From contig JAMAHW010000104.1 in NCBI GenBank assembly GCA_023627715.1, positions 1-64,000 of the forward strand: a stretch of DNA of 64,000 nucleotides, read 5' to 3'. The notes under the pieces are model-generated. The model saw nothing but the letters and a program-made list of their open reading frames with translations. It did not search any database and was not told where the DNA came from. Made by a program: the position numbers and the translations under genes. Below are positions 11,851 to 34,603 of this stretch, piece by piece (position 1 is the first letter of the stretch; the number at the start of each line of letters is the position of its first letter). This DNA is from Periconia sp. R9002 (lineage: Eukaryota > Ascomycota > Dothideomycetes > Pleosporales > Periconiaceae).

Positions 11851-11953
11851 CCGCCTTCAGGGCAAGGTCAGGGCCGGTGCGGTTCGGCCATGCTGACGGA
11901 CACTAGTGGCGAGACAAGTAAATGCACTACCACCATGCTGACGCCTCCAGTAC
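11851..11953 (-). repeat. ~103-base inverted repeat, copy R3 (left of the NLR/lipase pair)
   Basis: The reverse complement aligns end to end with 17045-17149 at about 88% by eye. Shared blocks include GAGGCGTCAGCATGG, TGCATTTACTT, TCTCGCCACTAGT, GTCAGCATGGCCGA and GCCCTGACCTTG. Most differences are transitions. The NLR stop codon lies about 110 bases to its right. Confidence 0.75.
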
Positions 11954-12063
11954 CTTGATGTACTTTTCTGTACTCTATATCTAAGTTGCAACTATAGCTA
12001 TTTAAAACACATAACTAGCTAAAATACAATCCGGTAGCCACAACGATACGCATCTAGCTGCTA

Positions 12064-14293
12064 CTAACTGTCTAGATTTAGAGAGCTAACGTCGGCTTCC
12101 TCCGCCTCCCAGTTTGTGAGTGTGCTAAAAGAAGATATGTAGTGTGGATGGGTAGTACCAAGAACGTGACTTTTCAGGCGCACGCATTCCTTCATGAGTT
12201 CTATAGCTTCCGCGTCACGATGCTGACTTTTCCACGTAAATGCGAGATTGTTCATGCTGGTCAGCGTGTCAGGATGGCTATCTCCCAGCTTCGTCTTACT
12301 TGTCTCTGTCGCTTGTACGTCTAGCGCTTCGGCCTCTTTCCACCGGCCTTGGTTCCAGTACGTCGACGCTAGGTTAGCTATGCTAGTTAGCGTGTCAGGA
12401 TGGCTGTCTCCTAGCTTCGTCTTGCGAGTCTCCATCACTTGGACGTCTAGCGCTTCGGCCTCTTTCCACCGGCCCTGTTTCCAGTACGTCGACGCTAGGT
12501 TGGCCATGCTCGTCAGCGTCGAGGGGTGACTGTCTCCCAGTACCCTTTTCTTTGCTTCTAAGGCTCGTTGATGGACCAAACATGCCTCGCTGTACTGCCC
12601 TTGCCACTCTAGCACGAGTCCAACACTGTTAAGGCTGCTCAGTGTATCTGGGTGCTCTGCTCCTAAGATGCACTCTCTGACCTGGAGAGCGGCAGAACCC
12701 ATCTCGTGTGCCTTGCTGTACAGCCCTACCTCCCTTGCGTACCATGCTGCTTTGAAGAGCACTGACGCCCACGCCTCGAGCGCTGCCTCGTCCTTTGGCT
12801 GGTTGTCCGCCGCAGCTTGAGCGTGTGGGAATAGCGCCTGGCACACGGCCCAGTTCTCGTACTGTTCCACGGGATAGCTATCGTCTATGAGCATTGCATA
12901 GATTCCTTTCCAGCGTTCCAACTCCTTGTGCAGTTCGAGCCACTTCTTGGTCGAAAACTGTACTAGCCGATGCATTTCGAACTCATGCCCATTGCCATTG
13001 GTCTCAACAAGCGAGAAGCTCGTCAGTGTGTAGATGTCATCGTCGAAATCAGTCTCTCCATCAGCATCCTCACTATTATCTTCGCTCTCCCTCTCATTCT
13101 CTTCCCCATATCGATCGCGTAGCAGCGACTCCGGAATCCCCTGCCGGTCGAACAGGCTCATCAGCGACAGCAGCCGGGCGGCCGCCGGTGCGCTTGCTCG
13201 GATATAGTCAAACGAGATCTGCCAGGTCGCGATAATGGAGTTGGACGCACGCCCGTCCCTACGTCTATCTCCCACGTCCTTTTTCAGCAGCCGCGCCCGG
13301 TCACCATCGCTCCTGCGCACCTCCTCTACGTATTTTGAAACAGTCATGCGCGGCGCTCTCTGCTGAATAAAAGCTGCTGCCTGGGTTAGGGCGAGCGGCA
13401 TAAAGTCGAGGGCGCGTATCAGCTCTGCAGCCTCGTCTTCGTTAGCGATAGACCCGAGCTTCTTTTGGAGAAGGGTCAGCGCGTCGTCTTTGTTCATAGG
13501 CTTGACCTCGACAATACCCGCAGAGCTGCCGGTCAGCTTATATGCGGTGTCTCGGCTCCGTGAAGTGACGAGGATCGAGCCGTTAGGCGACTGCGGGAGG
13601 AAGTCGGAGAGCAGCTCAGCCGGCTGCTCCACGCTACCCACCGGGTAGCGTTGCGATGCGCTGTGGAAAAAAACACCCGCGTCGTCGGCGTTGTCCACCA
13701 CCATCGCCCACCGCCCGTTCGACTCGTCGCACAGCCAGCTGCGTAGAAGCCGCAGCACGTCCGCCTTGGGGTCGTCCCAGCCGTCCATCTTGATCGCTTC
13801 GGCGATCCTGCGGTACCCCTCTTCGAACCTTGCCCGAGTGCCCGCGTGCACCCAGAACACACACGTCGCCGGCGACTCGTCCCGCACGCGGTAGGCATAC
13901 TCGATGGCAATCTGCGATTTTCTAAGCCTGTAGTCAGTGCTGGCCTTTTTGTGGAGACCACACTACTCACCCAACGCCACCTAAGCCGACGAGCGCTGCG
14001 CAACCTGCTGGCCTGGCGCACAGCTCGCGCACCTTATCCAGGCTGTCGCGGTGGACGAAGTCGTCGTCGCGTCGGAAGGGTATTATCCACGATGGTGAGG
14101 GCTTTAGGTGGTGTTCGTGAATGACAGTGACCGGACCTGCATTATGCTGTTGGTTTAAATGTCTTTGGGTGCAACCAGCAGTATGCTTACCGTTGTAGAT
14201 GTCGCGCCCCGCGTTCCCAGCGCCCTGTTGGAACGTGTGTGCGGTGACGGAATCGTTGTGATGCGTGTCGCGAGTATCGGCGACGTGCGCCAT
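12064..14293 (-). CDS. Fungal NLR: amyloid-type N-terminal motif, NB-ARC, TPR
   Basis: Exons 14293-14191, 14136-13971 and 13921-12064; 708 residues. The N-terminus is a short region with QQGAGNAGRDIYNG (residues 22-35), encoded by exon 1. Then come a linker and NB-ARC: Walker A GLGGVGKS (85-92, split by intron 2), Walker B WAMVVDNADD (161-170), an ILVTSRSRD block, and the MPLALTQAAAFI motif. The C-terminal third is TPR repeats (about 480-690) with the fungal NLR signature GDSHPDTLTSMANLASTYW, three of them almost identical. There is no separate effector domain, so the motif would stand in for one. The matching motif is in the lipase gene 520 bases upstream on the same strand. In known fungal systems the NLR oligomerises on ligand binding and templates amyloid folding of the partner to trigger incompatibility cell death. 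That role is inferred here. Confidence 0.85.
12225..12570 (-). repeat. Near-identical TPR-coding repeats inside the NLR gene
   Basis: Three consecutive 126-base units encode 42-residue TPRs (QGRWKEAEALDVQ-x-x-ET-x-KTKLGDSHPD). Long DNA stretches such as CTAGCGCTTCGGCCTCTTTC recur between units with few changes. Such high internal identity is typical of fungal allorecognition NLRs, whose repeats undergo concerted evolution. Confidence 0.75.
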
Positions 14294-14813
14294 CGCATGT
14301 CTGGCAGCAAGTCAAGACAAAGAAGCCTAGCTACAGAGTTGATATGTGTGTTGTTGAAGGCAGCTTGATAAGATACGCTTGAGGTGGACAACACGAAGCC
14401 CGGCGCGATAGTTGAACAGGCTATTTATTTATAGCTTCTCAGTGCGGCTGAGATGCATGTGAAAGATTCGCACCCTGCCTTCTCATGGCATTTTCCCCTT
14501 ATCTGTCACCTAACGTGCTTGTCAATCGCGTGAACAGATGCCCTGATGTTTCTCGGCTATATTGGGAAGATTGGAGCTCAGTAATAAGATAACAGTTCTA
14601 TAATATATAGCAGTTGAAGCACCCCCCTGAATACAACTTGGTCATATGCATCACTACTAGATTAATCCGATTCTCTCATAGGTAGCTTGCACGATGGAGT
14701 GTATTTCAACAATACCATTCTCTTCCGTCCCAATATAACGAAAACGTATTCCAGCTCACTAAACGTCGCTCTGTATAGCGTTAGCACAGCAGGTCTTTCC
14801 CTCTTACATATCC
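14294..14813. other. NLR promoter interval
   Basis: 520 bases between the lipase stop and the NLR start, both on the minus strand. It is AT-rich at 14570-14660. No further gene seen. Confidence 0.4.
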
Positions 14814-16087
14814 TTAGCATTTGTTGATCCAGTCATGTCCTGCACTTTGGTTGGTTACATTTCCGTGAACGATATCTCTCGCCGCATTGCCAGAGCCCTG
14901 CTGAATTATGTCGGCGCATATGGAGCCATTGCTAAACGACATAGTTGCAGCAGGCGCAGTGCTCCGGGCCTGATTGTCCACCTCAGCCCCTGGCTGCTCT
15001 GCTCTCTGTTTTAGCCAATCGTCAATAACTGCTTTGAAGTTGATGAACCCGGCGTCGCGCGAGCTGGTGAATTTGGTCATGTCCATGTGGTTCGCGTCAA
15101 TCCCACAGTTGGGATGCGGCAACATTATCGCCGACTCTTCAGGTACCACAAATCCAACAACATCAACAGCAACCGTCTCGTAGAAACAGAATACCTTAAT
15201 GTGACTCAGTGATCCAGTAGCTGTTAATTGCCGCTGGAAGACCTCCTCGACTGCCTTGAGCACTTCGGACTTTTGCTTCAACAGCGAGAGTAGCTCCGTA
15301 TTCGCTCTCCAAACCCGATCTAAGAGCCTTGCGAGCGTATACCCCCATGTCGCCAGGTAGGAGCCTGAATGTGGAGTGCCCATGAAGACAATGCCGGCCG
15401 TACAGCTTGCAATGCTGCGCAGACGAGGATCGCTCGGCTCCAGGGCAACGAGCAGCGCCTGTTCTGTGACGAGGCCGCCGAGGCTATGTACGATGAAAAA
15501 AAGGGGTCGTTTAGTCTCGTTGGGTCGACTGTTCGAAATGGCATATGCAAGAGCTTTTCCATGCCCACGAAGCCCATTCCCGCTGGAATTCTTCCAGAGG
15601 CCTACGACGTTGGCGTCGTAGCCATACGTAATGATTCGCGCCGTTGGGAACTGTGCACGCATAAGATCTGGCGTAAAGGTGCCATTAGGATGCGTCCATG
15701 TTGACTGGCGATCTCCGGTTAAGCCGTGGATGAACCAGAGGCTATAATAGTTAGCAGCAGGCTCGCAACGCGTGCATGCAATCATACTCCATATCAGCAT
15801 TAGCCGGACTCGATATGGTCTGTATGCCAAACATGCCGTCTATTGTTTCACTGTGGGTGAATTATTAATGTGTTTACATAAAACAGTGGCTGAGCATACA
15901 GGGTCTCTTCTGGGAGACTCGTGGGCAAGGCCGATGCTGAAGCCCTAGCCATGGCAGGGGGTGGTTGAGTAGTGAGAGCTGTAGAGCCAGCTCCATCACT
16001 CACGTTGATGGCCGTAGGTTGGACATTGGATGATGTAGGGAACTTATCGGCGCGGCTTTTCAGAATGGAGAACGGAGAGCGGGGCAT
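14814..16087 (-). CDS. SesB-like serine lipase/esterase with C-terminal amyloid-type motif
   Basis: Exons 16087-15878, 15819-15788 and 15741-14814; 389 residues. The 46-base intron between exons 2 and 3 has GTATGA, a GCTAAC branch site and a TAG acceptor. The catalytic domain starts FIHGLTGDRQSTW (oxyanion region). It has GYDANVVG, the nucleophile elbow VHSLGG (Ser about 167), GIVFMGTPHSGSYLATWG, and a terminal ANHMDMTKF histidine. This is the layout of the fungal SesB / 'AB hydrolase, protein SERAC1-like' effectors found fused or linked to NLRs. After the hydrolase comes a short linker (about 300-350). The last 35 residues contain QQGSGNAARDIVHG (361-374), identical at 10 of 14 positions to the N-terminal motif of the adjacent NLR. 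I infer a membrane-damaging or lipid-cleaving cell-death effector switched on by the NLR. The first acceptor site is the least certain part of the model. Confidence 0.8.
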
Positions 16088-16180: not shown

Positions 16181-16457
16181 TTCGAAAAAACATGCCCCCC
16201 CCCCCTACCCTCAGCCTGATTGAAAAGGAGAAGAGGGCTTACTAGAATAGGTAAGAACCTGTCAGAAATAGTACACATATGTCAAATTTTAGTATACTTT
16301 ACCCTAAAAGTGACAACCGTAGGGTGTTTTACAAGGAGGGGGACCAATAAGACTACACGGAGTATATGTAATATGAGGTAAAGTACATGTAGAGTGATGT
16401 AATCACTGATTTTTACATAATACGCCAGACAAGGCGAGGGGGGCATGTTTTTTCGAA
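16181..16457. mobile_element. MITE with perfect 20-base terminal inverted repeats
   Basis: 16181-16200 reads TTCGAAAAAACATGCCCCCC, and 16438-16457 is its exact reverse complement. The interior (about 237 bases) has no coding capacity. It sits 94 bases upstream of the lipase start codon, so it may affect that promoter. Target duplication is not obvious. Confidence 0.7.
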
Positions 16458-17044
16458 GAGCACCGATAAGGAATGGTGAGAGCGGCTGATAGTCTAGCCG
16501 ACCCACTTCAGTGCCGCTACGCACATCACCCGCCTTAAGATAAACATGGTAGGCTGCCTAGCTCATAAACTTCTCCTATATACCGAACTTAATTTGTATC
16601 TTACCTATGCGTATTAGTGGTGGTAAGACATGCGATGAGACATGTCGCGGTCGCTCGCCGGAGCATGTATAGCAACGACTCTGTCATCGCGCACACCTTT
16701 AGCAGGGCGCGGGGAACGCAAGGCGCGATGCCAACCACTATAGTGGTATGGCTACTCCTCGATTAAACCACGTAAGGCATATCTCCATATACAAATAACT
16801 GACGGTGTCGTGAAGCCCCCAGTGATCGTCGTGCGCAAGGACAACCCCAAAGTATCACCATCGTCAACAGTTCCCTCCTGGCGCAAGCCGAAGCTCAAAG
16901 CCGCTCATAAACTATATACCGCAATGCTAGAGCGGATCAGTTCTGATCACGACGCGCAGCAAAAACGCAGCGCTGCAGCCGGTGGAGCAGCGCGAGATTG
17001 TTGAAGTTGAGCCAATGAACGAGAGATGCACAAGTACATAAAGG
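16458..17044. other. Intergenic between MITE and repeat R4
   Basis: One short basic ORF (16810-17004, 64 codons, MKPPVIVVRKDNPKVSPSST start) is present. I recognise no family and do not claim it as a gene. Confidence 0.4.
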
Positions 17045-17149
17045 GTACTTGAGGCGTCAGCATGGGGATAATGCATTTACTTATATCTCGCCACTAGTAT
17101 CTGTCAGCATGGCCGACCCGCACCTGCCCTGACCTTGTTCTGAGGCGGG
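17045..17149 (+). repeat. ~105-base inverted repeat, copy R4 (right of the NLR/lipase pair)
   Basis: Inverted partner of R3 (11851-11953), about 88% identical by eye. In orientation it is a left-type end like R1. It therefore may also be the left boundary of the block that carries the next two genes and ends at R5. Confidence 0.75.
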
Positions 17150-17402: not shown

Positions 17403-18114
17403 TCAGTCGATTAGTATAAGAGAAAAAGATGACGTAGCGAATTTTCCTATCCCCCCCGTAGCTATGTTGAAACAAAACCCCTCTAAGTATGAATACTTTT
17501 TATCCTCTCTGTTCCACACTCTTAGATAGTCCCCCGCTTTCCATTCAACATGACCAAGATAATCATGGCTTTGATCTGATTTGGTCATGTATAATTTAGT
17601 ATCTGTAAATGGCTTTGAGCCTCCTTTTGCCAGAAGACGGGCTGGGACTCGGCCAACCGTTTTATTTCTTGAGTTATATGCTATAGCTTCTGTACGATTG
17701 CTGGTCCATGCGAACACAACAATCTGATCGCCAGAATTCGCCACGATATGCCGGTAATTCCCACAAAGGTATCCATCTTCAATGGCCATCGTGAGAGGAG
17801 GGTTCAAGGTCTCATGGGTGGGCGGTTGGGGTTTCGTTTGCGGTTGAGGGAGTGCTTTGGGGCGGTCGGGAAAGATGGCAACCACCTCCGATAATAGGTC
17901 CTCGATCTCGCCGGGCACAGAACTTGTTTCACGGAGAAAGAGCAGTTGCTGTTACGAGGTTGTTAGGTCACGCTAACCGTATAATGTAGATAAGCGTAGG
18001 ATGGCTTACTGCCCGAAGTATACGTATATGCATCTTCGCGCTGGACACGATAGATGTATGCTCATCATGAATCAGTTTGGAAACCATCTCATCCGCACTA
18101 GACGGAGTCGCCAT
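17403..18114 (-). CDS. SH3-like hypothetical protein
   Basis: Exons 18114-18010 and 17948-17403; 216 residues. The N-terminal ~70 residues are helical (MATPSSADEMVSKLIHDEHT, LRAQLLFLRE). A Pro/Gln linker (PKALPQPQTKPQPPTHE) comes next, then two short beta-rich segments. One is YLCGNYRHIVANSGDQIVVF with VGRVPARLL, resembling an SH3 fold with its terminal G-x-V-P. The other is VEWKAGDYLRVWN with GFCFNIATGGIGKF, a second SH3-like pattern. No catalytic motif. It lies between repeat copies R4 and R5 and could be cargo of that block. I do not recognise a named family. Confidence 0.55.
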
Positions 18115-18595
18115 AGTAAGTAGCAGAGGAGGAAAAGGTATAGGCTATACAGATAACAGTGACATGGGGCTAACTTGTAGTTAGTTAAAGAACTGAAGGT
18201 GCGGGGTCAAGTATTTGCTAGCCTTATTGCTACAACCTTGTGCAGACCGTTCAGCCCTTTAAGAGCGGGGTAACGTTCCGCTTCAGTGTCATAAATGGCT
18301 GCGGCGTAGGCCAGTAGAAGCTTGATTTTGGGGGTCTAGCTGTTTACAATATCATAGTGCAGATCTAACTACACTTTTAGAAGAGGAAAAAACGACAAGC
18401 CCCGACGACGATATCTTTGCTGAAAATTGTGGACGTGCCCTGTCAGTATTTCTGGGTGATGTACACGCCTGGCTTGGCGATTACGAGATGGTGTGTTGGT
18501 GCGGGGTAAAACTAAACTCCCATCCAAAGGATGACCATAATTGTCACCACGCTTCACGTTCGTTTTTCATTCTCTTCATTTCAACATCCGTCAAT

Positions 18596-20343
18596 ATGAG
18601 ACGCCTGCGACAGACTCACCTTGCTGGCACTGTTGCCAATTATCTCACCATTGTGGATATCCCATCGTCGGCAGTTCGAGCCGAAACTTCTGCACAACAG
18701 CCTGCTGGGAAACCGTATATTTTGCAGCTCCCAGATGAGCTCCTCATAGCTATCGTCGAATTTGCTGCCAAAAACACTTCTTCCAGCAGCTTGGATACAT
18801 GCAATGAATGCTTGGATACTTCCAGTGGATATGAGCACCCGACGCGCCCTTGGGATTATTTGAGTCTTAGAAAACTATCGCTTGTGTGTCGTAGATTTGC
18901 TGAAGTTGCTCAGCAGCAACTTTTTCGCACTATCTACTTCAATTCCTTAGTTACAACCGTTCCCCCTACTAGACGTATTCGAAGGCTCTACAATACTTTT
19001 GCGCAAGAACCACGCTTTCAAAAGCACTGCAGGTATGTATAAATTCGCCTTTATCAAACTCCACTTTACTTAAGCTAAAAAAAAATCTAATGGCAGATCT
19101 CTATTCATCTACATAAAGAATACAACGGTTGGGGACGATTTGCCCGATAACTATGTCGTAGCAAAGAATTTCGCTTGTTGTTTGAAGAGCATACGCTGTC
19201 TTAAGATATATGGCGGGTTCGAGAATAGGGGAAGCAGAAGCTGCAATGAGTCTACTTGGGCTTTAATCCGTCTTTTCGTTGCCCACTGTAGAGACATTGA
19301 GCATCTGCAAATTTCAAGATCGGGATTAGGTCTGCTGCATCTGGAAGCTCTCTTTAAATGGCTGGATTTCCCCAGATTGAAGGCGCTATCTGTGCACGGT
19401 ATATCCGAATGGGAGCATGGGAGGGTAGAGCTGGAGCCCCGGGTACGTATAATTCTCTTCTTCAACGGGTAGAGGGTCTACTTCATAGAAGCCTGATTAA
19501 ACCTAGTAGCTAATATCCGTGTAAATGCAGATGCGTCGCACTGCTCCATTCACATCATTAATAATATCGGATTATGAAGAAGGGCCTCAGGCTACGTCTC
19601 TACTAATCCAATGGCCCGCGGTACTTTCTCACTTCCATTTCAGTGGATATGTAGCGCGCACCCGTGTCATAGACTATTCTACGCTCGAGTCGTTACTACT
19701 GATACACAAGAATACTCTCAAGTACATTAATATATGGGGCCTTTGTCTAGAAGGAAATAGTCGACTTTTCAATGCTACTCTCTTTCCCAAACTTGGGTTT
19801 CTAGAATTGTCTAGATGGGACACACACGGCAACTCTGTCCAGTTTAGGGCCAGTGACACAAATATACTGGGTCTTAAGCTTGAGACTTTCTCCTGGAACT
19901 GTAGTGCTGGTGGGTGCGAACGTTGGACATCGTTTAATAAGGCTAATTGTCTCTGGATTCGCGATCTTGCAAATGCAGCTGTAGCCTGCAATGCTGCTCT
20001 TAGGAGGATTAAAATAAAATTTCGTCCAGACTACCCAGAACTGGAAGAAGAAACAATATATCCATGGGACTTGATGGATGACCTTAGAGATAAAGTACTC
20101 CGACCAAAGGGTATAGACCTGTCGTACAATGATCCGCCTGTCTCGAAGGAAAAGTGGATAGAGCATCTCAATGCTCCTAAGAGAGAAGAATTTTTAGTTG
20201 AAAGCGTGGATTACAGTGTCGTGAGTCAGGAAGATCAGTCAATCGAGTCCAGCGAGCAGATGGGGTGCAAAGGAGGATATGAAGGGGAGGATCTTCGAAA
20301 ATACTTCGTCCCCACTTCAAAGTCTCAAGAATCGAAGTCTTAA
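18596..20343 (+). CDS. F-box protein with leucine-rich C-terminal region
   Basis: Exons 18596-19032, 19097-19442 and 19531-20343; 531 residues. An in-frame ATG at 18488 exists, but the ATG at 18596 is closer to the domain and in better context. An F-box starts at about residue 42: LQLPDELLIAIVEFAAKN, then DYLSLRKLSLVCRRFAEVAQ and LFRTIYF. The rest has scattered leucine-rich strand-turn segments (LKSIRCLKIYGGFEN, CRDIEHLQISRS, LESLLLIHKNTLKYINIWGL) common in ascomycete F-box proteins, and an acidic tail. The family works as a substrate adaptor of SCF ubiquitin ligases; the substrate is unknown. It is convergent-flanked by R5 and next to the SH3-like gene. Confidence 0.75.
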
Positions 20344-29730: not shown

Positions 29731-31657
29731 ATGGGCGTAGGAAAAAGACTTTACAATTTCTTCTCCGACACATGGGCGCTTGAACTGTTACTCCTCCTCG
29801 TATCATGGATGTCACTGTTGACAACGGTCGGTTTGCTCTTGCGCTACGACCAGAAGCCGATTTTCACGTGGCTTGACATTTCACTGAACGCCATGGTATC
29901 CATTCTCGGAATCGTCTTCAAGGCATCCTTAGTCTTTGTCTTATCATCATGCCTCGGCCAATGGACCTACATATCTTTTTCAAAGCCGCAGCGTCGACAA
30001 CTCTTTGACTTCGTTACATTCGACAGTGCTAGCCGAGGCCCGTTGGGAAGCTTGTTGCTACTCTGGAGGACGCGTCTGAGGTAGGACTGGCATTTTTCTT
30101 TCCTTCATGTTATTCGAGCGTGGATAAGACATAACCTGACATGTACTGCATAGTTCGTGGGCTGCGATAGGTGCTTTCACTGTTGTTATATCGTTTTTCA
30201 TCGATCCCACTCTACAACAAATCATCAGCATGGGCGAAAAGCAAACTGCGTCAGCACAGAACCCGTCAAGTATTCCTTTCGCCACACGTTATAATAAAGG
30301 TACATCGAGGCCGATTCCATCTCTGAAAAGCGAAGGGATTCTACAATCGTCTCCTGATCCCTCGATGCAAGCTGCCATCCTCTCGGGACTTTCTGGAAGT
30401 AAAGGAGTTCAATCCGTCGATTTGCGGTGTCCTACCGCGGTCTGCGAATGGGAATCATTCCACACACTCGCGATATGCTCGACCTTCTCAGACTTGACGA
30501 GCCAAGTATCCAAAATATCTGGTTCCTGGCCTTTACAATATGAAGATGCAGCCCGATACCAAGACAACTATGAAGACGATCCTGTAACGGCGGTCAAAAA
30601 CGGTACTTTCAGAGACTTTTATGCTTTACCCCATGACCTTCTCCACATCGAAGCCACTCAATTCGACGGTACCCGTTTGCTCAGTCTCACCTCCACAAAC
30701 AGAAGTAACACGATATCTTTCAAGGATCAAGATACGATGTTATGGTCCATTGCTGTTCTCCAGGACACTGCTAATATCAAGAAAAACACCGCCTTTAACG
30801 GATCTGCCCCTACTTTCATCGCGTATGAAATCAGCCTGTCGATCTGTGTTCAGCAGTTCACGTCGAAATCAACAAACGGAACACTAAACGAATCCACCCA
30901 AAACATCAACGCGACAATCATAAAAGGCGGAGAACCAAAGGACCAAGAACCCCAAAACGTGAACGCCGGACAACTCGCTCAATCAGCCGTAGAACCCAGA
31001 GACGATATCGAGTTCGAAGGCGGTATAACCATCTCCCAAACTTCACTCAACGGTATCGCAGGCGGTCTAGACATCACCTTCAGACCGACCGACAGGATCT
31101 ACGGCTTCTACGGCAAATTATCAAATCAAAGCGACACCATCCGATACAACCCCCCCTCCATGGAGCACATGTACAACGCGCCCGACCCTATGGCATTATG
31201 GGAAGATATTGCAGAGAGCATGACGAATAACATCCGTACCAACGATGCAGAAGGAAACTTGGCAAGAGGAACGCAAGGGATCATCGTATACCGTGTCAGA
31301 TGGGTGTGGATCTCCCTCCCCGCCGCGGCGCTGTGCGGCGGAACGGTATCGCTCTTTGTGGCTATGTACTTGACGCGCAAGTACCGCGCGCCGTTGTGGA
31401 AATCTTGCGCGTTGGCGATGTTGAAGTGTGGGGCGCTGTCTGGGGGTGTTTTTGAGGGGTGTGGGGATATTAGTGCGATGGAGGAGGTTGCGGAGAAGAC
31501 GATTGTGAGGATTGCGGGTGTGGGAGGTAAGTTATTACTCGGAACGGTTGTGACTGTGGACCTTTTCGTATAGATAGGTTAAGTGCTAATTAAAGCTATA
31601 GGTAGCAGAGCCAAAAATCAACCTACGGCAGTTATTCAGAAGAGTTTCTTTGATTAG
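29731..31657 (+). CDS. DUF3176-family membrane protein
   Basis: Exons 29731-30080, 30154-31526 and 31602-31657; 592 residues. An in-frame ATG at 29674 is less likely. The N-terminus reads WALELLLLLVSWMSLLTTVG, then WLDISLNAMVSILGIVFKAS, GQWTYISFSKPQ, FDFVTFDSASRGPLGSLLLL. A helix and FFIDPTLQQIIS follow. This is the DUF3176 signature (W-x-E, TLNA, LGQ-KW, DxASRGPxGS, DPxxQQ). A long extracellular loop has several N-glycosylation sites and conserved cysteines (LRCPTAVCEWE). A C-terminal membrane helix (WVWISLPAAALCGGTVSLFV) and short tail end it. The last intron (GTAAGT, GCTAAT branch, ATAG) adds GSRAKNQPTAVIQKSFFD. The role of the family is unknown. Confidence 0.8.
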
Positions 31658-31899
31658 GGTGGTTTTTGACTCTTGGCTTGATGACTAGCTCTTTGGGTTA
31701 TTGCTGCCACGAAGAAGAGCGCTAAGTTGAGGTCTCAATGAGAAAACTAGCTAGGATAATAACCATCGGTTTATCGTGAATTGATGCATTGTTTGGAATA
31801 TATCTTATATGTTTCTTGTACTGCATTTACGGTCCATCCTTTGTATAACAAGTTATACAGCAGAAGTAACTTAGCTAGCGTACCAGGGGGTGCTCACTT
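31658..31899. other. Convergent 3' ends
   Basis: Short interval between the stop codons of the DUF3176 gene and the sugar transporter. Confidence 0.4.
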
Positions 31900-33681
31900 C
31901 TACGCGTTATGCCTTTCAATGTGTTTCGACGCCGGCATTTCGTACGTTTCGACCCCTCCCTTCACTGTCCCCAAATCTTCCGGCAATGTGCCTAGAGCGC
32001 GCTCGCCGAAAAGGAGATCGATTTCTTCGAGCGTGAGTTGTTTCGTTTCCTAAGTTTCACGTCAGCGGACCAGAACATGATTACAGCCACTCAGAAAAAT
32101 CAAACATACCTTGAAAACGAAGTAGATCGTCGGCAGCGAAACGCAAAGATTAAAAGCGACAAAGATGAAGTAGAACTTGTACGTGATGGCTCCTAATCCA
32201 ATGGGAGAAACTTGCGACCACACCGTGCTAACCAACCAATTCCCAATACCAGTCGCAAACGCGGATCCCCTTCCTCGGATACTCAACGGCATAATCTCAC
32301 TGGCGTAGACCCACGAAATCGGTCCAAAAGATACGCTGAAAATCGCGCTCACGAGGAAGAGGAAGAACACGCCTGCGATGGAGAGACTGTCTTTGCGGGA
32401 CCCGGTGGCGCCGACGACTTGAGAACCGATGACTGCTTCGGCGATGAGGGCGCCGGTGATTGCGAGAGTGCCGAAGAGAAGGGGTTTGCGTCGACCTACG
32501 CGGTCGAGAAGGAACGTGATGAAGACGAGGTTGAAGAGTGGACCGACGATGTTGTAGATTCCGGCTACGAGGAGGTTGCGTTGACCGGTTATGCCGAGGT
32601 TTTCGTAGAGAATGGTTTGGTAGTAGCCAATTACGTTGATTCTGGGGTATAATGTTAGAGTTTCTGCAGAGGATAGGGATTCTGAATAGGAAGTGGTTCA
32701 GTGGGGAGAGGGAAACGGGAATGATAAAACATACCCTGTCATTTGCGTGAAAACCTGTACGAGCGTAGCATGCATCAAGCGCGTCCTCCACGCCTTGACC
32801 TTGAACATGATGCGCCATCCTGGTACGGTGATCGCTTTCTCAGCTTCAATGGTTGTTTTGATTTCGTGGAACTCAGCCTGGATCTCATCTTCATTTCTGC
32901 CGTTGAAGTGAAGCTTATGTAGCACCTCCAGCGCTTCGTCTGCGCGGTCTACCTCAACCAGATAACGCGGGGATTCGGGGAAGAAGAGAATGCCAAGGAT
33001 GAGGATCAAACAAGGGATGCATTGGAATGCAAGCGGGAACCTCCAGGAAAAGCTGCTACTATCAGGGACGTGAGAGGCGCCGTAGCCCACCCAGGTCGAG
33101 ATGATAAAGCCAACGCCTATCATCTGTTGTGTGATGCCGACTATGAGACCTAGATTCACATTATGTTAGAGTTTTAAGCCGAGAAAGTGTAGGAGGTTCG
33201 TGAAGTACCTCTTGTAGCAGGATGCGCGCATTCAGTTTGGTAGACGGGGACGGACATGGAAAGAATTCCCACTGCCCAGCCAGCCATGATGCGACCCACG
33301 AGGATCATGGCAAGACTCCGAGCGCCTGCCTGTAAAGCTGCTCCGATGAGATTGACAACTGCGCCAATGAATACAGTCTTCCTTCGACCGAATTTGTCCA
33401 TTGTGAAGCCTCCCCTACCAAAATCCCAATTAGCTTTTCATCCAGGTATCGAGCGCTTCGAGATGAAAAAGATGCAGCACTTACATCAACGAACCAAACA
33501 CGGCTCCACCAGAGAAGGTAGCATTGATGGCACCGATGATGGGACTAGTCTTGTCGGTGTTGAAGTACATCAAAAAGTTCTTCGAGTGAATCACATCCGT
33601 CATGACACCGCTGTCATACCCGAACAGAAAACTCCCCGTGCCAGCGAAGATGGCAAGCAGCAAATTGAAAGCGAGACCCAT
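31900..33681 (-). CDS. MFS sugar transporter (hexose/oligosaccharide type)
   Basis: Exons 33681-33485, 33414-33209, 33149-32735, 32641-32110 and 32049-31900; 499 residues. Sugar-porter signatures: GSFLFGYDSGVMTDVI in helix 1, DKFGRRK after helix 2, GRIMAGWAVGILSMSVPVYQ-x-E-C in helices 4-5, FPESPRYL after helix 6, GINVIGYY-type helix 7, DRVGRRKP in the C-half, and FGPISWVYASEIMP in helix 10. It has twelve predicted helices and a short cytosolic tail. The substrate cannot be read from sequence. Its position between a cytosolic alpha-xylosidase and a secreted GH3 enzyme suggests a plant-cell-wall sugar or oligosaccharide. It is divergent from GH3 over a 920-base shared promoter. Confidence 0.87.
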
Positions 33682-34603
33682 ACTGACGTTCTCAACACCG
33701 ATACCGACTCAATCGCAGAATGATCGTCCCTGGCTATCTATCACGAAGACGCGTGTGAAAGGTCTGCGAAAAACCCGGGGTACGGGGGTATAAAGCTCTT
33801 CCCCCAACCCATCACCATAACCAATCCAATGGCGACGGGCGGCCCTTCATTCCTTCTAAGCGACCCGCGCACGCACACACACACACGCGCGTGCACAACA
33901 ACCGTTCCAATAGTCTTCATGGCTGAGAGGATCGTGAGTTGTTCATCTGATCTGCTGGCCTACGAGCTATGTCTGCAGATCCGGGGTCGTCGAGGAGCGG
34001 GGTGCGTCGTCCTGGCTCGGAAATATGTTTCTCCTCCAATCAACGTCCACGTCGGATCTTCCTCACCAACGACATCGCGGTAATAAGCCCGGTGTAGAGG
34101 AGAAGGAATTCTTGCGCTATGCTCCGATGAAAGAGTTGGACGATGTGTGTAAGCAGACGCGGAGGTTATTACCTCACAGGATCCTTCGTGCCTGTTACTG
34201 CATTCTACCAAAGTTGGCTATTCAGCAGCAATTGGCCTAGTCATGCTTTTAGTAGCATACCCATCTGGATCATCGGTTATATCCAAAATCTGCATCCAAC
34301 TTTAACCCTCCACACACAACGACCGAATGACAGCACCCCTGACACGGCACCTCCGTGTTCGGAAGCATTGCACCTCTCACCCGGTATAGATAGATTGACG
34401 GTGATTAACTGATCCAATCGCTCGGACGGACCGATGAGCGACTTTCCCCCTCGCTGGTTATTGGTGTGCCTGGCACCGTCGAACCATTTCATCATAGACG
34501 GAGAATTTCGAATTACTCCTCGGATAACTCTCTACAATATCAACAATGACCCTCCCTTCATCTACACATTCCCAGTGTCAACACTGGAAGGGCGTAGCTC
34601 ACA
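33682..34603. promoter_or_regulatory. Divergent promoter between sugar transporter and GH3
   Basis: 922 bases with no gene. It contains a CA tract (33873-33888) and a pair of CreA-type GC boxes. Co-regulation of the two flanking genes is an inference from the layout. Confidence 0.45.
33981..34002 (+). promoter_or_regulatory. Paired CreA-type sites (SYGGRG)
   Basis: CCGGGG at 33981-33986 and GCGGGG at 33997-34002 are two close matches to SYGGRG, the carbon-catabolite repressor site, about 16 bases apart. Closely paired sites are the usual functional form, but the motif is short. Confidence 0.3.

Follow-up and report, generated by a model that had tools for sequence, protein, structure and literature searches.

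The stretch of Periconia sp. R9002 DNA analysed here (64,000 nucleotides, hereafter the window; contig G000:C104 in a 43-Mb genome of 267 contigs) encodes a SesB-like lipase and, in tandem with it, a NOD-like receptor (NLR) with a nucleotide-binding (NB) domain and tetratricopeptide repeats (TPRs), and the two proteins carry a matching motif at the ends that face each other. The locus is interpreted, with a probability of roughly 0.7, as an NLR/SesB-like-lipase cell-death pair of the HET-S/NWD2 kind with an apparently undescribed motif, for which the name NAGRD is proposed in this analysis. The pairing of NLR and lipase as receptor and effector is well supported by the sequences; oligomerisation, templating, the amyloid nature of the motif, lipase activation and cell death are proposed by analogy with the HET-S/NWD2 and PP systems.

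Matching ends of two adjacent genes

Both genes lie on the minus strand, the lipase gene followed by the NLR gene, so that the lipase C-terminus faces the NLR N-terminus. The features are as follows.

14814..16087 (minus): SesB-like lipase gene, 392 amino acids; exons 15900-16087, 15788-15850 and 14814-15741; introns 15851-15899 (49 nt) and 15742-15787 (46 nt)
14853..14930 (minus): NAGRD motif at the lipase C-terminus, residues 355-380; the conserved tail continues to about residue 390
12064..14293 (minus): NLR gene, 708 amino acids; exons 14191-14293, 13971-14136 and 12064-13921; introns 14137-14190 (54 nt) and 13922-13970 (49 nt)
14126..14257 (minus): NAGRD motif at the NLR N-terminus, residues 13-38, split by intron 14137-14190
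12943..13191 (minus): DUF7779 domain of the NLR, behind the NB domain (Pfam PF25000, E 5e-12)
12175..12843 (minus): tetratricopeptide repeats of the NLR (Pfam PF13374, E 9e-53; PF13424, E 3e-45)

The preliminary description of this DNA had reported 10 of 14 identical residues between the NLR N-terminus and the lipase C-terminus. Both stretches, QQGAGNAGRDIYNG and QQGSGNAARDIVHG, are present with that identity, and after splicing the likeness extends to an ungapped alignment of NLR residues 13-38 (NDSVTAHTFQQGAGNAGRDIYNGPVT) with lipase residues 355-380 (NGSICADIIQQGSGNAARDIVHGNVT), in which 15 of 26 positions are identical. The Smith-Waterman score of NLR head against lipase tail is 74, as compared to means of 23.0 and 22.5 after composition-preserving shuffling of each side separately; it was reached by none of 20,000 lipase-tail shuffles and none of 20,000 NLR-head shuffles (Gumbel fit, p ∼2.6e-7). 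The end of the motif on the NLR side (PVT) lies beyond the 54-nt intron, and the same junction, with no insertion, is present in the orthologue models P0122, P0123, P0124 and P0125.

Splicing leaves the lipase reading frame unbroken down to a single stop; the NLR frame is likewise intact, its P-loop GLGGVGKS being restored by intron removal. The lipase is an alpha/beta hydrolase related to proteins named SesB, with the nucleophile motif HSLGG. The spliced P-loop, DUF7779 and TPRs identify the receptor as an NB-domain/TPR NLR; the window exon matches NACHT below the cut-off only, while its orthologues P0127 and P0123 exceed the cut-offs of NB-ARC and NF040586, respectively. The NLR presumably also has a region of winged-helix type. 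In protein database searches the proteins nearest to the pair come from ascomycetes, which we take to be for the most part members of the Pleosporales, e.g. Lentithecium, Pleomassaria, Karstenula and Kalmusia.

Queried with the motif in both its forms, the genome yields just the two window genes, the next candidate having an E of 0.32 in a search that scores only the best candidates, and the motif appears confined to this pair in the genome. Scanned in all six frames with the tail profile, the window likewise gave the two genes, with a weak match in a plus-strand open stretch from 16703 (E 0.005) that was taken as chance. The consensus of 19 lipase tails is TFNNGPIKAxVFQQGxGNAGRDINHGNVTNQSAGRDWIN. 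The RDIN unit is repeated in the NLR heads P0127 (Pleomassaria) and P0129 (Epicoccum), RDINKARRDINNAGGDIHN and RDIIHAGRDINN, and a second AGRD unit is present in the lipase tails; these repeats hint at a repeat-built fold.

Conservation of the motif and recurrence of the pair

The complete lipase sequence found 227 matches, the best 120 of which were examined. Among the 44 closest (64-79% identity) the core motif is present in 40, and its stricter form Q.G..NA[GA][RH][DN] in 37 of 41 tails, window included. Averaged over the 40 orthologues, column identity is 0.76 in the motif and 0.31 in the linker, against 0.81 in the hydrolase domain. AlphaFold2 modelling of the last 316 lipase residues gave a well-folded hydrolase (predicted template-modelling score 0.75), with the motif-bearing tail disordered from model residue 260. 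The solved relatives of the model, as also found by sequence, are lipases and a phospholipase, and model residues Ser94, Glu196 and His226, invariant in 34 aligned proteins, probably have catalytic roles; an NCBIfam search of the lipase gave nothing useful. Several other recurrent Gly/Asn-rich tails occur at the lipase C-termini P0045-P0120; apart from the sigma-like group they form four groups or more, without clear mutual match, and are candidates for further motif families. The Penicillium lipase P0072 is faintly similar to the motif (profile-profile 2-8%, tail-profile E 2e-4).

On the receptor side, NLR residues 1-440 found 3284 matches, and the motif is carried by seven of the best 120: P0122, P0131 (Teloschistes exilis), P0123 (Xylographa), P0124 (Cenococcum), P0125 (Karstenula), P0127 (Pleomassaria) and P0129 (Epicoccum). 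Of these 120, 76, including six of the seven carriers, have a P-loop preceded by 40 or more residues; the model of P0131 has no P-loop. When the 121 NLRs are searched with a profile of the 40 orthologous lipase tails, which leaves out the window lipase, the best matches are the window NLR (E 3e-14) and the same seven, with a range of E 3e-14 to 7e-10; the next follows at E 1.3. Two profile-profile comparisons of the lipase side with the NLR side gave probabilities of 99.3% and 98.5%. BLASTP with the lipase also recovers these seven NLRs via their heads, together with four in which a related lipase is fused in cis (P0235, P0190, P0169 and P0219; 34-41% identical to the window lipase). P0090 is a lipase/NLR fusion with a PP motif between the two parts. 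In other close NLR relatives this N-terminal position is occupied by HET, PNP_UDP, SesA or lipase domains, so that the NLR N-terminus is an exchangeable effector slot.

The preliminary description held that a motif unconserved in orthologues would speak against its proposal of a SesB-like pair, and suggested looking for the motif beside NLRs in related genomes. The motif proved conserved in lipase tails and NLR heads alike, and lipase and NLR recur together on six apparent shared contigs. Its SesB-like pairing is likewise upheld, in that a SesB-like lipase adjoins an NB-domain/TPR NLR; the occurrence of one conserved motif at the NLR N-terminus and at the C-terminus of the adjacently encoded effector is what characterises the general class of such pairs. 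The six cases are lipase and NLR matches on contigs of identical size, to the base, so that each two probably share one contig: the Pleomassaria pair on 1,889,306 bases (locus tags K504DRAFT_468277 and _468281), the Karstenula pair on 988,968 bases, and metagenome pairs on 85,838, 54,014, 17,407 and 9,706 bases. Of the 44 lipases, 21 lie on contigs >5 kb, and for the NLRs the comparison covers the best 120 of 3284; two further near-pairs, with contig sizes differing by 2 bases, were left out of the six.

The genome contains two further effector/NLR pairs with different motifs. One (G000:C15 589181-591600, L062) consists of a HeLo-domain effector and an NLR whose PP motifs match; both exceed the Pfam Ses_B cut-off. 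The other (G000:C2 ∼30600-33800; L013, L035) is a divergent lipase/NLR pair with stops in its frames and a matching motif, FNAPVTGHNVVNGARF / FNGAIEGHNVFAGLRF; this motif (FN..I.GHNV) is the tail type of the Delitschia and Zopfia lipases P0048 and P0057. The motifs of the three pairs match within, not between, pairs. An NLR at G000:C7 ∼128250 (L033) has a head, FGEGNRGFQARTINGPVHVEYH, intermediate between the PP pattern and the window NLR's NGPV ending.

An F-box protein (18488-19042, plus) and an open reading frame of 171 amino acids without Pfam match (17403-17918, minus) neighbour the pair. A 26-nt inverted repeat (16181-16206 / 16432-16457; 92% complementary, 225 nt apart), resembling a miniature inverted-repeat transposable element, lies ∼100 bases upstream of the lipase start. 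Longer inverted copies of a dispersed repeat, which occurs at 13 places in the genome, flank the gene pair at 11857-11954 and 17044-17143; no claim of a mobile unit is made. On contig C155 the dispersed repeat stands beside a 71% match to 14682-14845, at the lipase 3' end.

Proposed mechanism and alternative explanations

In the proposed mechanism, the TPR part of the NLR, its presumed sensor, would sense a ligand and the NB domain would oligomerise. Oligomerisation would gather the N-terminal NAGRD motifs and nucleate an ordered, probably cross-beta (amyloid), assembly, which may template the motif's counterpart in the flexible C-terminal tail of the adjacent lipase; the analogy for nucleation and templating is NWD2/HET-S (PMC4344463). 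Lipase molecules would thereby be gathered and membrane-lipid hydrolysis switched on, and the cell would be killed or arrested. The pair appears to be a new switch in which a receptor turns on a killer enzyme.

Some observations weigh against this interpretation. The core is absent from four of the 44 close lipases, P0024 and P0043 being cut short and P0042 and P0044 ending in different sequence. Just the seven NLRs named above carry the motif among the best 120 of 3284, of which 44 are without a P-loop or without 40 residues before it and are mostly unjudgeable. AlphaFold2 gave the isolated lipase tail no fold (mean predicted confidence, pLDDT, 50). Moreover, in the three complete lipase/NLR pairs from other species and the window the within-pair motif scores are not above the between-species scores; there is therefore no sign of pair-specific co-evolution, unlike in sigma clusters, for which it is described (PMC3321046).

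It is doubtful, though conceivable, that the motif is a diverged branch of PP or sigma with an unchanged mechanism. It is placed like PP, directly before the NB-domain linker, when P0090 is compared with the window NLR, and SesB-type lipases are known as PP and sigma partners (PMC3321046). Nevertheless, none of the patterns of PP (FxGx(x)NxGLQLxGxNxGxL, central GxQxG), sigma (sub-motifs GxGxQF and GGTQN, a three-fold array), PUASM (FxGxGxQxxGxGxF, of PNP_UDP effectors) and GDQN (NxxxGxQYxxxGxGDQN...) occurs in any of the 41 lipase tails or 8 NLR heads (49 sequences, window included), where the five controls cover PP (three show its core, two the fuller pattern) and GGTQN (P0092), and PUASM, GDQN and GxGxQF have no positive control. 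Profile-profile comparison gives 0.0-0.2% against 10 sigma-like tails (a label assigned to the P0078 group by eye), at most 0.2% against the PP and sigma-like sets, which are small (3 and 10), and at most 0.3% when four other lipase-tail groups are included. Pfam Ses_B (PF17046) does not match the 19 tails, the controls C15 and P0090 being matched. NACHT_sigma (PF17106) has no match in the genome, a search with no positive control in which the sigma-like P0078 and P0104 are also unmatched, and the HET-s family is absent among the matches of the 19 tails to E 10, with HMMER filters applied and no HRAM control.

It is unlikely that the motif is a homotypic docking element without self-propagating amyloid, by which an oligomeric NLR would recruit lipase tails through stoichiometric strand pairing. 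The same sequence facts fit such docking, as does the lack of a predicted fold in the lone tail; its position at NLR head and effector tail, its length of 26-40 residues and its Gly/Asn/Gln-rich make-up are nonetheless those of amyloid motifs elsewhere (PMC4344463, PMC9815663). That the matching ends are a functionless scar of a split ancestral lipase-motif-NLR fusion is very improbable, although lipase C-terminus adjoins NLR N-terminus and fused relatives exist (the four cis fusions, and P0090 with PP between): the motif is kept far better than the adjacent linker in the 40 orthologues, and selection holding the motif but not the linker disfavours a scar. Chance or low-complexity similarity, to which the abundance of Gly, Asn and Gln in both stretches might point, is rejected as next to impossible in view of the shuffles on each side, the matches of the lipase-tail profile to NLRs, and the absence of matches between the off-diagonal pairs of the genome.

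Beyond these families, Pfam finds no family at either terminus at E up to 10, and for the 19 tails just four single weak matches to unrelated families (E 0.11-0.24). NLR residues 1-60 found no relative in the protein database (2 candidates), and a motif scan of prokaryotic genomes gave 30 pattern matches, of which none held up at E 1e-3. In a search of the running text of openly accessible papers the NAGRD core strings matched one paper, on fish-scale collagen. The preliminary description had left undecided whether the motif is a sigma variant or a new family; from the sequence comparisons NAGRD is apparently undescribed, matching none of the fungal families compared (PP, sigma, PUASM and GDQN), with bacterial BASS1-10 and NLR34 outside the comparison. 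NLR34 is a 28-residue motif of ascomycetes, given without a paired effector (PMC9815663). Whether NAGRD forms an amyloid-signalling family of its own, with a separate fold and a lipase killer, in a genome that keeps three or more mutually orthogonal prion-like channels (NAGRD, PP and FN..I.GHNV), seems to us evenly balanced; if so, SesB-like lipase tails would hide more undescribed fungal signalling amyloids than those named.

Relation to known NLR/effector systems

Four fungal motif families have been counted, with the GDQN pair added (PMC12261475). A further family, represented by 41 natural variants on the effector side and 8 on the receptor side and accompanied by two more pairs in its genome, would allow tests of how sequence sets templating specificity, and would bear on how many prion channels one cell keeps apart. 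The lipase branch is of interest as well: SesB-like domains are common on ascomycete NLRs, and their link to cell death is termed indirect (PMC9815663).

The window locus resembles HET-S/NWD2 of Podospora anserina (motif HRAM, a 21-residue unit with two copies in the effector and one in the NLR) in its adjacent NLR and effector, in one motif shared by NLR head and effector tail, and in the exchangeable NLR N-terminus. It differs in that its effector is a lipase and not a HeLo pore-former, its motif appears unrelated in sequence, and its NLR has TPRs rather than WD repeats. With the sigma locus of Nectria haematococca (HET-eN, SesA and SesB) it has in common an NLR whose neighbouring effector is a lipase of SesB type, and a shared Gly/Asn-rich tail, whereas the sigma sub-motifs are absent and no motif-bearing SesA-type partner was found in the window. 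PUASM, like NAGRD, was defined by pairing (PMC9815663), but its PNP_UDP effectors are of another type and its pattern is unmatched here. The GDQN pair of Fusarium oxysporum Fo5176 is similarly a recent motif recognised from a single NLR/effector pair by sequence alone (PMC12261475), yet its partner carries a SesA domain and its pattern is also unmatched. The PP pairs (HELLP, SBP and PNT1) are alike in motif position, PNT1 being an NB-ARC/TPR NLR and SBP a lipase (PMC5485727, PMC12881547); they are unlike the window pair in that its motif is without the GxQxG core, and the same genome has a separate true PP pair with a HeLo effector.

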